Source: Pararhodobacter zhoushanensis
Lineage (GTDB): Bacteria; Pseudomonadota; Alphaproteobacteria; Rhodobacterales; Rhodobacteraceae
Direction: 5' to 3'
Assembly (NCBI RefSeq): GCF_025949695.1
Contig: NZ_JAPDFL010000001.1
Span: forward strand, 1,408,001-1,472,000
Length of the DNA stretch: 64,000 nucleotides
Each line of letters opens with the position of its first letter. The stretch's first letter is position 1. The translations under genes and the position numbers were made by a program. This document shows positions 13,603-45,464 of this stretch, in pieces. The notes under the pieces are model-generated. The model searched no databases. It had not been told where the DNA came from and saw only the letters and a program-made list of their open reading frames with translations.

Positions 13603-13612
13603 ATGTGTACAT
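13603..13612. promoter_or_regulatory. ATGTGTACAT operator candidate for dctPQM
   Basis: One base different from the perfect palindrome ATGTATACAT found in front of the ThDP gene and ligA. It lies about 65 bases ahead of the dctP start, downstream of TTGTCA on the minus strand, close to where a -10 element would be. Confidence 0.55.
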
Positions 13613-13954
13613 GTCGCAGGCCTCCTGACAAGGAATTTTCATGAACCATTCTCAATCTTAGCCGTGATCGGGCGTGCGACATCGGCGGCCGTGGCAGCAA
13701 TTTCGGGAAAGCCGGAAACAAGGATCGGTCTTTGATTCCGGCGGCTTGCAGGGTTTTGCGATGATCCTGACCGCAAAAAGACAGGAAATTCCCGACCTGA
13801 GCGGATTTTCCAGCGGTGTGAACCGCAGCGCTGACACCGCGGCGGGGAAACCTGTCGCCGAATCAGTGTCAGGGGCCCGAATAGGTCGCGCCCGTGCCCG
13901 ATTTCTGCCGTGAAGCCGGACTAGCCAGCATCTGGCCCGTTGCGAAGGGCTCTT

Positions 13955-13987
13955 TTGTCAGGCAGACTGACAAGCAATGTATACATT
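13955..13987 (+). promoter_or_regulatory. Promoter and operator of the ThDP/FAD unit
   Basis: TTGTCAG-N5-CTGACAA is a perfect 7-bp inverted repeat (13955-13973) whose left arm can act as -35 (TTGTCA). The perfect 12-bp palindrome AATGTATACATT (13976-13987) covers the -10 position (TGTATA at 17-base spacing). The start codon is 14 bases beyond. An operator on the -10 implies repression. Confidence 0.6.
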
Positions 13988-14001
13988 CTGGGAGGGGTGG
14001 C

Positions 14002-15657
14002 ATGAAAGTCGGAGAGGCAATCGCCGAAATTCTCAAACGCGAAGGCGTTGAGATGGTCATCGGCTATCCGGTCAATCACGTGCTCGAATACGCCGCAATG
14101 GCCGATATCCGGCCGATCATCGTGCGGCAGGAACGCACCGGCGCGCATATGGCTGATGCCATCAGCCGGATGACCAGCGGCGCGAAAATCGGCGTGTTTG
14201 TCATGCAGTCGGGCCCGGGGGCCGAGAACACCTATGGCGCCATCGCGCAGGCTTTTGCGGAATCGGTGCCGCTGTTGGTCATGCCGGGCGGGTATCACCG
14301 GCGGCTGGCGCATGTCTCGCCGAACTATAATTCGACGCTCTCGATGCGCGACATCACCAAATCGGCCGAGCCGATCAACGATGCCCGCGAGATCCCCAGC
14401 ATCATGCGCCGCGCCTTTTCGCGGCTCAAGAACGGGCGCGGCGGTCCGGTTCTGGTCGAAATCCCCAACGACATCTGGAACGATGACGTGCCTGAGCCGC
14501 TGAACTACACGCCGGTCCTGCGCACCCGCTATGGCCCCGATCCGGCGGCGGTGGTGCAGGCCGTTGACCTGCTCGCCGGGGCGAAACGCCCGGTGATCTA
14601 TGCGGGGCAGGGTGTGCATTACGCCAAAGCCTGGCCGCAGCTCAAAGCACTGGCCGAACGGCTGTCGATCCCGGTCTGCACCTCGCTCGAAGGCAAAAGC
14701 GCGTTTCCTGAGGACCACCAGCTCGCGCTCGGCTCGGGCGGTGCGGCCCTGCCGCTGACCGTGCGGCATTTCCTCGATACGGCGGATGTGATCTTCGGTA
14801 TCGGCTGCTCATTCACCGAAACCGCCTTTGGCGTCGAGATGCCGTTGGGCAAGCGGGTGATCCATGCGACACTGGACCCCGACCACGTCAACAAGGATAT
14901 CGAGGCCGAAATCGCGCTGGTCGGTGACGCCGCGCTGATGCTCGACGCCGTTCTGGCCGAGATCGACGCCCGCCGCCTGCCGACCCCCGACCCGCGCGCC
15001 GTGGCCGACGAAATCCAGCGCGTCCGCGCGCCGTGGATGAAGAAATGGATGGTCAAGCTCAAGTCCGACGAGGCGCCGTTCCGCCCCTACCGCGTGCTCT
15101 GGGACCTGCAGCACACCGTCGATGTCGCCAACACCATCATCACCCATGACGCCGGCAGCCCCCGCGACCAGCTCTCGCCCTTCTGGGTCTCGACCACGCC
15201 GCTCAGCTATATCGGCTGGGGCAAATCCACCCAGCTTGGTTATGGTCTGGGGCTGGCGATGGGCGCGAAACTGGCCTGCCCGGACAAGCTGTGCATCAAC
15301 GTTTGGGGCGATGCGGCGATCGGCTTTACCGGCATGGATTTTGAAACGGCGGTGCGCGAACGCATTCCGATCCTGTCGATCCTGCTGAACAACCACTCGA
15401 TGGCAATGGAACTGCCAATCATGCCGGTATCGACGGAAAAATACCGCTCGACCGACATCGGCGGTGACTATGCCGCCTTTGCCCGCGCCATGGGCGGCTA
15501 CGGCGAACGCATCACCGAGGTGGCCGAGATCATCCCGGCGATCAAACGCGGCATCGCGGCGACCGAGGCGGGGCAACCCGCGCTCTTGGAGTTCATCACC
15601 TGCCAAGAGATTGAATCGTCGAAATATCCGCGCGGCAGCGGGAGCCTGTATCCGTGA
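14002..15657 (+). CDS. Acetolactate-synthase-like ThDP enzyme of unknown substrate
   Basis: Thiamine-diphosphate enzyme of 551 residues. Domain order is PYR (N-terminal, with the activating Glu in IIVRQERTGAHMADA), middle Rossmann-like domain (AKRPVIYAGQGVHYAKA), and PP domain with ThDP motif GDAAIGFTGMDFETAVRE...LLNN. The start ATG 14002 follows GGGAGGGG. It is distinct from mdlC in this window: it lacks the NLHSAAG and FTYH histidines, so benzoylformate decarboxylase activity is not supported. Its last bases overlap the FAD oxidase start (GTGA), so both are co-translated. Lyase, ligase and decarboxylase activities are all possible. Confidence 0.75.
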   Translation: MKVGEAIAEILKREGVEMVIGYPVNHVLEYAAMADIRPIIVRQERTGAHMADAISRMTSGAKIGVFVMQSGPGAENTYGAIAQAFAESVPLLVMPGGYHRRLAHVSPNYNSTLSMRDITKSAEPINDAREIPSIMRRAFSRLKNGRGGPVLVEIPNDIWNDDVPEPLNYTPVLRTRYGPDPAAVVQAVDLLAGAKRPVIYAGQGVHYAKAWPQLKALAERLSIPVCTSLEGKSAFPEDHQLALGSGGAALPLTVRHFLDTADVIFGIGCSFTETAFGVEMPLGKRVIHATLDPDHVNKDIEAEIALVGDAALMLDAVLAEIDARRLPTPDPRAVADEIQRVRAPWMKKWMVKLKSDEAPFRPYRVLWDLQHTVDVANTIITHDAGSPRDQLSPFWVSTTPLSYIGWGKSTQLGYGLGLAMGAKLACPDKLCINVWGDAAIGFTGMDFETAVRERIPILSILLNNHSMAMELPIMPVSTEKYRSTDIGGDYAAFARAMGGYGERITEVAEIIPAIKRGIAATEAGQPALLEFITCQEIESSKYPRGSGSLYP

Positions 15658-44128: not shown

Positions 44129-44139
44129 CGGTTCCCCCT

Positions 44140-44994
44140 TCAGGCGTTCTTGTTCTCAAGGATGATGTGGCCCACAGCCGTGTTCGAGGCCGGGACGTGG
44201 TAGTGACGATGCACTTCGACGACGTCGTCGTCCAGCGCGCCGCGCATCACGTGCCACATGACCATTTCCACACCTTCCGAACCCGCCTCACGCAGATAGT
44301 CAACGTGCGGCATCTTCGACAGACCGACCGGATCCGAGGTCAGCTTGTCCAGGAACATGGTGTCGAACTCGGGGTTGATCAGACCGGCGCGCTTGTATTG
44401 CAGCTGGTGCGACATGCCGCCCGTGCCAAAGATCACGACGTTCAGATCTTCGGGGAAGCTTTCCACAGCGCGGCGGATTGCCTTGCCCAGATTGTAGCAG
44501 CGGTTGCCGGTCGGCGCGGGATATTGCACCACGTTCACGGCCAGCGGGATCACCAGAACGCCCCAGTCATCCTCGGGCTTCTTGTCGCCGTACATGACGC
44601 TGAGCGGAACGGTCAGGCCGTGGTCGACTTCCATCTCGTTCATGATGGTCAGGTCGAATTCGTCCAGGATCAGCGACTGGGCGATATGGCTGGCCATTTT
44701 CTGGTGGTTCTTCACCACCGGCACCGGACGCGGGCCATAGCCTTCATCAGCGGGGGTGAAGGTGGCCGCAGCCCCCAGCGCGAAGGTCGGGATGCACGAG
44801 GCATCAAACGCCGTGCAATGGTCGTTATAGACCAGAAACACCACGTCAGGCTTCTTCTCGGCCATCCATTTGCGCGAGAATTCAAAGCCTTTGAACACCG
44901 GCTGCCAGTACGGCTGCTCGGTGATCCCGGTGTCCATGGCAACCCCGATCGCGGGGACGTGCGAAACCCCGACGCCTGCAGTAATACGAGCCAT
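44140..44994 (-). CDS. ligB: Protocatechuate 4,5-dioxygenase beta subunit
   Basis: Catalytic subunit of the class III extradiol dioxygenase, 284 residues. Iron ligands His12 (GVSHVPAIG), His59 (YNDHCTAF) and Glu243 (EGVEMVMW), and the catalytic His196 (GTGGMSHQL) are present. The block [17 protein letters not shown] matches protocatechuate enzymes better than the second copy at 48.3 kb. ATG 44994 overlaps the ligA stop (TAATG). Confidence 0.9.
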
Positions 44995-45383
44995 TATTCT
45001 TCTCCCCACTCGGATTTATAGCGGTTGCCGTCGATGCTGCGGCCCCCGTTCAGCATCATCTCGCGATAGGATTCGACACCCATCCCGGTCATCAGACCCG
45101 CGAGGTTCTGAAAGTTGATCCCGTCATTCGCCGCCAGCTTGGACGTGTAATAGACGTTGCCGCCCAGCTCGAGCAGGCGGTTCCACTCGCGCTTGAGCAC
45201 GGCTTCGCGCTGTTCGGGCGTCATGGGGAAGCCGTCGAGATAGGCTTCTTCATTCGCGTTGAACGCGTCGCGGTTCTTTTGCAGACGCAGCGTGATGCAG
45301 AACTGGTTCAGATGATATCCTTCGCGCGAACGGTCGGCGTCAAAGACGAACGTTCCGGGGATATCCTCATAGTCCTTTTTCAT
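44994..45383 (-). CDS. ligA: Protocatechuate 4,5-dioxygenase alpha subunit
   Basis: Small subunit of 129 residues that closes the active site. Family features are [53 protein letters not shown]. The start is followed directly by the conserved part. First gene of ligABC, with a palindromic operator 72 bases upstream. Confidence 0.9.
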
Positions 45384-45454
45384 TGGTGGCTCTCCCGATT
45401 ATCGTGATGCTCCGAACCTTCGCGCAGGGGCGCGGGCGGGCAGGCGATCACGAG

Positions 45455-45464
45455 ATGTATACAT
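45455..45464. promoter_or_regulatory. ATGTATACAT operator in front of ligABC
   Basis: Perfect 10-bp palindrome, identical to the core at 13977-13986. On the minus strand TTGTGT lies 16 bases ahead of TGTATA, so the palindrome covers the -10 region of a ligA promoter as it does at the ThDP gene. Confidence 0.6.

Follow-up and report, generated by a model that had tools for sequence, protein, structure and literature searches.

Atu1419 of Agrobacterium fabrum, an FCD-type GntR protein of the VanR group (PDB 6z74, 6za0, 6za3, 6za7 and 6zab), represses its own gene from an operator, ATGTATACAT, that overlaps the -10 element (PMC7797058). As its targets, three genes from a single cluster (atu1418, atu1419 and atu1420) have been published, the proposed effector is N5,N10-methylene-tetrahydrofolate, with no answer to tetrahydrofolate (THF) or methyl-THF, and GntR effectors are said to be frequently pathway intermediates (PMC7797058). 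In Sphingobium sp. SYK-6, the ligM-metF-ligH operon, which serves the same biochemical step as ligM here, is controlled by DesR, a MarR family protein that reads a 15-bp inverted repeat and has vanillate and syringate as effectors, and ligJABC belongs to the LigR regulon (PMC6888825). VanR of Acinetobacter baylyi and Caulobacter crescentus and VanR2 of strain NGC7 are GntR repressors of vanillate/syringate demethylation that control vanAB-type oxygenase demethylases and have aromatic acids as reported effectors (PMC6888825, PMC12314914); VanR2 reads GGGATCCC (PMC12314914). In Rhodopseudomonas palustris, CouR, a MarR-type protein that answers p-coumaroyl-CoA, is with CouPSTU and TarPQM an example of one regulator over ABC and TRAP importers for lignin-derived aromatics (PMC3610893).

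The system described here, part of which lies in a 64-kb stretch of DNA (the window), shares with Atu1419 the operator, a site in the regulator's own promoter, a LigM-type neighbour target, a MetF-like gene in the cluster, and the DNA-contact side chains and zinc residues. It differs in that Lys175 is not kept and in that sites occur at five chromosome places, including ligABC, formate-tetrahydrofolate ligase (FTHFS)/FolD genes, TRAP and ABC importers, and a unit of a ThDP-dependent and an FAD-linked enzyme (ThDP/FAD unit). Both the regulator and the operator belong to a known type. The regulon of importers, ligABC and folate one-carbon genes far exceeds the three-gene set described for Atu1419; no report of such a combination was found in literature searches. 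A DesR-type (MarR) regulon is ruled out by the GntR and FCD domains of the regulator and by the different operator, and a Caulobacter-type VanR operator pattern had no match in the 13 loci searched.

Operator sites in the window

The initial annotation had proposed that a shared ATGTRTACAT operator links a TRAP importer, the ThDP/FAD unit and ligABC. A pattern scan of the 64 kb gave exact matches at three places, ATGTATACAT twice and ATGTGTACAT once, with the letters and positions that it had claimed, and all three are intergenic (Table 1). The observed count was reached in 0 of 100 dinucleotide-preserving shuffles of the window; with one mismatch allowed there were still just three sites, a number also reached in 1 of 100 shuffles. 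The TTGTCA/TTGTGT elements reported near the operators are present as well, TTGTCA lying 16 bp (dctP) and 19 bp (ThDP gene) and TTGTGT 18 bp (ligA) before the operator's TACACA/TATACA; -35 matches had at least three mismatches at six of the eight sites inspected.

The octamer TTGTCAGG, which two sites were said to share upstream, is present in the window, but it is not conserved at the ThDP promoters of G010 and G017; it was rejected as a second element and, from the sequence comparison, is probably a coincidence. In the alignment of relatives including these two genomes, TTGTC at the dctP promoter is conserved, and the letters of ATGTGTACAT at dctP are identical in both. Among 21 genomes searched, all three that have the ThDP gene beside dctP carry ATGTGTACAT at the aligned place, and ATGTATACAT at the ThDP promoter is identical in 10 of 10 alignment columns across three genomes.

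Table 1. Genes and operators at the window sites, with the regulator gene. Coordinates are window positions unless a genome position is given.
Feature	Position	Strand	Remarks
dctM, TRAP large permease	10626..11921	-	
dctQ, TRAP small permease	11923..12435	-	
dctP, TRAP solute-binding protein	12516..13538	-	best solved relative 7nqg
Operator ATGTGTACAT	13603..13612	-	read ATGTACACAT towards dctP; 64 bp before dctP
Perfect operator ATGTATACAT	13977..13986	+	15 bp before ThDP gene
ThDP-dependent enzyme	14002..15657	+	NF004807, 856 bits
FAD-linked 2-hydroxyacid dehydrogenase-like enzyme	15654..17030	+	best solved relative 8jdc, 480 bits
ligC-like dehydrogenase (GFO/IDH/MocA family)	43184..44128	-	
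ligB, protocatechuate 4,5-dioxygenase beta subunit	44140..44994	-	
ligA, protocatechuate 4,5-dioxygenase alpha subunit	44994..45383	-	
Perfect operator ATGTATACAT	45455..45464	-	71 bp before ligA
PcaQ-like LysR regulator	45516..46751	-	upstream of ligABC
GntR regulator gene	G000:C1:2267517-2268260 (L007:10018-10764)		outside window; GntR + FCD domains

The dctP start was taken where relatives align, the open frame running further, and ligB was taken to start at the ATG that overlaps the stop codon of ligA, in line with the calls in most relatives. The best solved relative of DctP we take to be an aromatic-binding TarP-like protein; that of the FAD-linked enzyme is a probable D-lactate dehydrogenase. 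The PcaQ-like LysR protein is a possible second controller of ligABC. LigR of SYK-6 is of the LysR type.

The regulator gene and the genome-wide sites

The initial annotation expected a VanR-type GntR gene whose promoter carries this site, and such a gene was found outside the window. Its product has the domains PF00392 (57.4 bits) and PF07729 (56.0 bits), each over its cut-off, and its promoter carries ATGTATACAT, ending 23 bp before the start, and a one-change copy, CTGTATACAT, that begins 13 bp after the first site. In an AlphaFold2 model (mean pLDDT 82.4), long helices span 76-100, 104-118, 134-150, 155-165, 182-204 and 208-232 and four-residue helices 172-175 and 236-239; the modelled effector domain is six-helix, of the VanR rather than the FadR group. 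The best solved relative is 6z74 (251 bits), which is Atu1419, and this kinship, with the operator ATGTATACAT published for Atu1419, bears out the suggested resemblance to VanR-group operators.

All 13 aligned proteins share the side chains that contact DNA in Atu1419 (Arg31, Glu34, Ser44, Arg45, Thr46 and Arg49; PMC7797058); the comparison covers side chains, and His9, which makes a main-chain contact, falls outside the aligned region. The zinc ligands Asn137, His141, His192 and His214 (N141, H145, H196 and H218 here) are also identical in all 13, and at the citrate site Arg86 and Tyr133 are kept in 13 and Asn221 and Ser169 in 12. Lys175 is replaced by Gln179 here and by S, R or E in relatives, and Arg183 corresponds to Arg187 here but to H, Q, A or D in relatives; in Atu1419, these two side chains hold citrate in an orientation that its authors consider effector-like (PMC7797058). 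The kept residues also occur in a 42% paralogue that has no such site nearby, and therefore the kept pocket is no proof of the inducer.

Exact ATGTRTACAT occurs at six places in the 4.65-Mb genome (reversed-pattern control, 0), all six between predicted genes; equal frequency inside genes, which the initial annotation had named as contrary to its claim, was thus not seen. Five places are perfect palindromes, whereas Markov models built from 167,976 bases predict 0.2-0.5, and the single ATGTGTACAT taken alone is within chance (0.6-1.2 expected). With up to one mismatch there are 18 places (reversed control, 8), inspected apart from three on contig C2, and several of the other one-mismatch 10-mers, e.g. 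inside genes in L013, L015 and L018, are probably chance. The bare core TGTATACA shows a modest excess only (13 vs 3.1-8.3 expected). Three such cores with other flanks lie in the L280 gene cluster, two or three also in three relatives, and none of the genome's 14 matches to the regulator lies there; further cores occur at L279 and L281.

The expected enrichment at aromatic catabolic genes was seen in the genome scan, with sites at ligA, ligM and importers. ligM, encoding a tetrahydrofolate-dependent vanillate demethylase (NF047885, 621 bits; 533 bits against the SYK-6-type solved demethylase), adjoins the regulator gene and is preceded by TTGTATACAT in this genome; beyond it, the cluster continues with a TRAP importer and a MetF-like gene. 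Sites are also found before FTHFS, which sits with FolD-like genes at a separate location, and before an ABC/aldehyde-dehydrogenase operon. At the latter the distance from site to gene is about 390 bp, and in G006 and G009 the gene nearest the site is a divergent, unassigned one. The three window units proposed as a regulon are thus retained, but the regulon is wider than claimed, extending to O-demethylation by ligM, to folate genes of one-carbon metabolism and to a further two importers.

Conservation of the sites across relatives

In seven same-genus genomes with a close regulator copy, 27 of 28 perfect sites lie at the same recurring promoters. The FTHFS promoter has the site in 6/6 readable close-regulator genomes vs 0/8 same-genus genomes where the regulator was not found, and the ligA promoter in 6/7 vs 0/1. 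Several of the genomes where the regulator was not found are incomplete (G003 80%, G007 85% and G011 89%). The FTHFS count leaves out G013 (gene in two pieces), G008, G005 (none found), G035 (weak match only) and a second copy in G016. It treats the G010:C21:190 site, which first appeared inside a gene because the frame is truncated at the contig end, as upstream, with the FTHFS start at base 133 and the site 56 bp before. The FTHFS start is represented in both G010 and G017 by two pieces at contig ends, and a perfect site occurs only at the MOSC/FtsH-side piece, the other pieces having been checked for perfect sites only. Around the G001 site no genes were callable.

The core site precedes LigM orthologues of at least 81% in 9/9 cases and paralogues of 41-45% in 0/13 examined (24 of 35 LigM matches had their promoters examined). 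LigM of at least 78% occurs in 11 of 36 genomes, all of which have a regulator of at least 47%; in G018 and G022, ligM has no site of its own and follows close behind the regulator gene. ligA of G005 and FTHFS of G004, G018, G021 and G022 (regulator 43-61%) are without a site, and therefore the regulon is not fixed. In alignments the 10-mer is retained amid diverging flanks at FTHFS, gntR and dctP; the sites in the ABC-operon leader were not lined up by MAFFT, and conservation there therefore rests on position only.

Regulator, inducer and proposed regulon

It might be argued that the sites are chance matches or plain -10 elements of strong promoters with no shared regulator, as TATACA resembles a -10 hexamer and TTG-type hexamers lie upstream of the three window sites. 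The excess of perfect palindromes, the 10-mer kept while its flanks diverge and the absence of sites in relatives where the regulator was not found largely refute this reading, to which we give next to no credence. It is also very improbable that some or all of the sites are read by another FCD-GntR protein, such as the 42% paralogue (L102). Although 14 matches to the regulator occur in this genome, and the L280 cores have no GntR match beside them, the promoter of the L007 gene itself carries a perfect site, no site within one mismatch occurs in the paralogue region, site presence at FTHFS, ligA and LigM follows the L007 orthologue, and the other 12 GntR matches have none of the six genome sites next to them. 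Judged from these sequence patterns, the L007 regulator very probably reads these sites.

With the same regulator and sites, the inducer could instead be an aromatic acid (vanillate or protocatechuate), the folate genes being included only as serving demethylation. Pathway intermediates frequently serve as GntR effectors (PMC7797058); DesR responds to vanillate and syringate even with metF and ligH in its operon, and VanR of Caulobacter responds to vanillate (PMC6888825); the effectors of VanR2 from Pseudomonas sp. NGC7 are syringate and 3-O-methylgallate (PMC12314914); and two residues that contact citrate in Atu1419 are not kept. We nevertheless hold an aromatic inducer to be rather unlikely, as Atu1419, the closest characterised relative, is described as responding to methylene-THF but to neither THF nor methyl-THF, the regulator shares its zinc site and most of its pocket residues, and the separately located FTHFS/FolD genes belong to the regulon. 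By analogy we lean towards methylene-THF as the inducer, a leaning slightly weakened by the two ligand-contact residues that are not conserved.

We consider it highly likely that an Atu1419-type GntR repressor of the VanR group uses the motif as its operator, and we propose the following mechanism. When methoxylated aromatics are absent, the repressor would sit on ATGTATACAT, the TATACA half of which could double as a -10 hexamer, and would block its own gene, ligM, the window TRAP importer, the ThDP/FAD unit and ligABC, as well as FTHFS with the FolD-like genes and the ABC-importer/aldehyde-dehydrogenase operon. When vanillate-type compounds enter, LigM would transfer their methyl group to THF, the MetF-like enzyme would give N5,N10-methylene-THF, and the repressor would be released, so that import, demethylation, ring cleavage and one-carbon removal would rise together. 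FolD and the ligase would then drain the inducer, closing a negative loop.

Overall, the computed regulator gene, its relation to Atu1419, the conserved sites and their likely targets support the proposed joint control of transport, early conversion and ring cleavage, from which we infer binding and repression. From the sequence evidence, one repressor very probably switches on uptake, demethylation and ring opening of lignin-derived aromatics together with one-carbon handling. That a folate-reading repressor gates the whole scattered regulon, from three importers and the entry step through O-demethylation and ring cleavage to one-carbon disposal, we put at even chances. The cell would then sense demethylation flux, and therefore methoxylated substrates would induce ring cleavage and protocatechuate alone would not. 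In another genus, a repressor described for three genes in one plant-associated species likely stands at the head of a dispersed regulon, which would couple the folate one-carbon pool to aromatic uptake and ring cleavage. This suggests aromatic substrates for the otherwise unassigned importers and ThDP/FAD pair and bears on the question of whether methoxy groups are what bacteria use to judge lignin monomers.

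Distribution of the motif in the window and the genome

The three places claimed for ATGTRTACAT in the initial annotation were all confirmed, and each is intergenic, preceding dctP of the TRAP importer by 64 bp, the ThDP gene by 15 bp and ligA by 71 bp. None of 100 shuffles of the window reached this count, and 1 of 100 did so when one mismatch was allowed. The whole-genome scan proposed there found 6 places in 4,654,038 bases (reversed control, 0), half of them within the window; five are perfect palindromes, compared with an expectation of 0.2-0.5. The genome has 13 copies of the bare core TGTATACA, compared with 5 for the reversed control and an expectation of 3.1-8.3. 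Eight of these cores belong to named sites (two each at gntR and the ABC operon and one each at ligM, the ThDP gene, ligA and the formate-tetrahydrofolate ligase (FTHFS) gene), and the other five lie in the L280 cluster (3), beside a LysR gene at locus L279 (1) and upstream of an IlvD/EDD gene at locus L281 (1).

The annotation had also predicted a GntR gene carrying the same site in its own promoter. Such a gene was found, with a perfect site ending 23 bp before it and a second copy, CTGTATACAT, beginning 13 bp past the first. It is followed on the same strand by ligM, TRAP dctPQM, a hydrolase, a YCII-domain gene and a MetF-like gene, and TTGTATACAT starts 34 bp ahead of the ligM start codon. 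The site at FTHFS lies 57 bp upstream of that gene, after which come FolD-like, chorismate-mutase-like and FolD genes. Further, the ABC/aldehyde-dehydrogenase/SDR operon has a site about 390 bp upstream of the called start of its solute-binding gene and an extra core, CTGTATACAC, 204 bp closer to the gene; this second core was not seen in four relatives. We note that the operon (locus L008) and a gene-transfer-agent capsid cluster (portal, protease, capsid) are set back to back in this genome, and that the operon has other neighbor genes in four relatives.

Coordinates of the regulator gene and of features in and outside the window
Feature	Location	Strand	Remarks
GntR regulator	L007:10018-10764
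MetF-like gene	L007:16331-17236
Paralogue of MetF-like protein	G000:C1:1968991		59%
LysR protein beside ligABC, 411 aa	window 45516-46751	-	extra LysR-type HTH (residues 1-89), then full PcaQ-like LysR (~105-399)
Second LigA-like + LigB-like pair	window 47965-49182	+	near ligABC, without motif
Stand-alone penicillin-binding-transpeptidase-domain protein, 268 aa	window 9756-10562	-	directly after dctM
Three TGTATACA cores	L280:6964, 7297, 10067 (G000:C1:2486000-2503000)		cluster of GlnA-like/GATase/P450, Rieske, amidohydrolase and oligopeptide-type ABC genes
TTGTATACAC	L279:5532		between LysR gene and glutathione-dependent formaldehyde-activating (GFA) family gene
Second FCD GntR	L102:1139-3180	-	42% identical to regulator; adjoins GcvT-fold protein (29% to LigM) and ABC solute-binding-like gene

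The first two L280 cores are spaced 310-335 bp apart here and at similar places in G006, G009 and G016. The GFA gene is possibly another one-carbon link, and the L102 genes are perhaps a sister demethylase system.

Sites across genomes with and without the regulator

Sixty genomes, own included, were searched for the regulator, which was present at 75-82% identity in six further same-genus genomes. In the resulting set of seven (G000, G005, G006, G009, G010, G016 and G017), perfect palindromes number 5, 2, 4, 3, 6, 3 and 5, respectively, and 27 of the 28 are at the promoters of gntR (6), ligM (2), the ThDP gene (3), ligA (6), the ABC operon (5) and FTHFS (5); the remaining one is within a gene. 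In G006 and G009, the ABC site is closer to a divergent unassigned gene than to the operon. In ten same-genus genomes lacking the regulator, the numbers of perfect palindromes are 1, 1, 0, 0, 0, 0, 1, 3, 0 and 0; three of these six are within genes, two are at gene ends or between them, and one is in an uncallable stretch. G004, with a regulator of 61% identity, has one palindrome ahead of LigM and one within a gene. The ABC/ALDH operon is supported as a target because, in G004, the regulator gene stands in a same-strand row with ABC/ALDH genes.

When fixed promoters were compared, the six close-regulator genomes with a readable FTHFS start showed five perfect sites and one with a single change. 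No site with two or fewer mismatches was found in 400 bp at FTHFS in eight same-genus regulator-less genomes (five at least 90% complete), in G004 and three other genera (G018, G021 and G022), or at the second FTHFS copies of G006 and G009. The ligA site is present in six of the seven close-regulator genomes and absent from G005, G014 (without the regulator) and G022. LigM orthologues of at least 81% have a core site 28-41 bp upstream in 9 of 9 cases; the core is missing upstream of two orthologues of 77-79% and of all 13 paralogues examined. LigM of at least 78% occurs in 11 of 36 genomes, all 11 with a regulator of at least 47%, and among the 25 others only G021 has a relative of that order (43-48% by method).

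Of 583 named loci, the best 80 were taken for a wider comparison. Among these 80, TGTATACA lies within 400 bp upstream in 17 of the 33 with a GntR of at least 45% (reversed core, 0) and in 6 of the 46 with a GntR below 38% (control, 0); the one locus between these bands has no core. LigM occurs in 10 of the same best 80, with the core within 200 bp upstream in 6 (control, 1). Records from Pelagibacterium, Allorhizobium, Rhizobium and Rhodobacteraceae/Pseudorhodobacter contain sets of GntR, LigM and site. The Pseudorhodobacter set is followed within 0.8 kb by LigA-like (36%) and LigB-like (43%) genes, and in G006, G009 and G016 a LigA-like gene lies downstream of the regulator at a distance of about 6 kb, so gene order is a further tie between ring cleavage and the regulator.

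Relation of the regulator to Atu1419

The regulator has GntR and FCD domains, and in its model (mean pLDDT 82.4) the effector domain contains six long helices. Its top solved-protein match is 6z74 (251 bits; runner-up, 58 bits), which is Atu1419 of Agrobacterium fabrum (PMC7797058). According to that paper, the operator of Atu1419 is ATGTATACAT, present twice at atu1418-1419 and once at the LigM-type gene atu1420; its sites overlap -10 boxes and it represses itself; methylene-THF is its proposed effector; and tetramer looping is proposed for its two palindromes, which are 190 bp apart (PMC7797058). All 13 aligned proteins keep the DNA-contacting side chains and four zinc ligands named in the paper. 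At the wing position Gly66, the nine proteins nearest our regulator likewise have Gly and the four most distant have Thr; each of these four shows no more than one imperfect site close to its gene. Overall, we conclude that the motif is strongly supported as the operator of this regulator. Repression at the sites would follow from the relative Atu1419, and the dctP and ThDP sites, 374 bp apart in a single divergent gap, could loop in the way proposed for it.

Predicted pathway and control

The window solute-binding protein is closest to solved 7nqg (299 bits), which we take to be a TarP-like protein for lignin aromatics. The FAD enzyme is near D-lactate dehydrogenase (480 bits), and the ThDP enzyme matches NF004807, a family named merely as thiamine pyrophosphate-requiring. 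Judged by family alone, the pair would act as 2-hydroxyacid dehydrogenase and 2-ketoacid decarboxylase on an aryl glycolate, e.g. converting 4-hydroxy-3-methoxymandelate to vanillin, which the aldehyde dehydrogenase of the ABC operon, on the same kind of grounds, could oxidize to vanillate. LigM is matched by a solved vanillate/3-O-methylgallate demethylase at 533 bits. The MetF-like protein has no Pfam match at E 0.01 and no NCBIfam match at 1e-20; among solved proteins it matches the methylenetetrahydrofolate reductase 7xg9 (150 bits). In six same-genus genomes, own included, its gene is on the regulator's strand, 6 to 9 kb farther downstream. The LysR protein beside ligABC has six relatives that align across 406-416 residues; with this PcaQ-like neighbor, protocatechuate may act separately on ligABC.

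Judged by listings and passages, searches of the open-licence literature gave no paper describing the present regulon and none on LigM in Rhodobacteraceae. Methylene-THF as the inducer is a reasoned guess, against which stands one result: Lys175 and Arg183, two of the citrate contacts of Atu1419, are not conserved among the 13 aligned proteins. In the mechanism we propose, methoxylated substrates alone would induce the regulon, LigM and MetF would give positive feedback, and FolD and FTHFS would give negative feedback.
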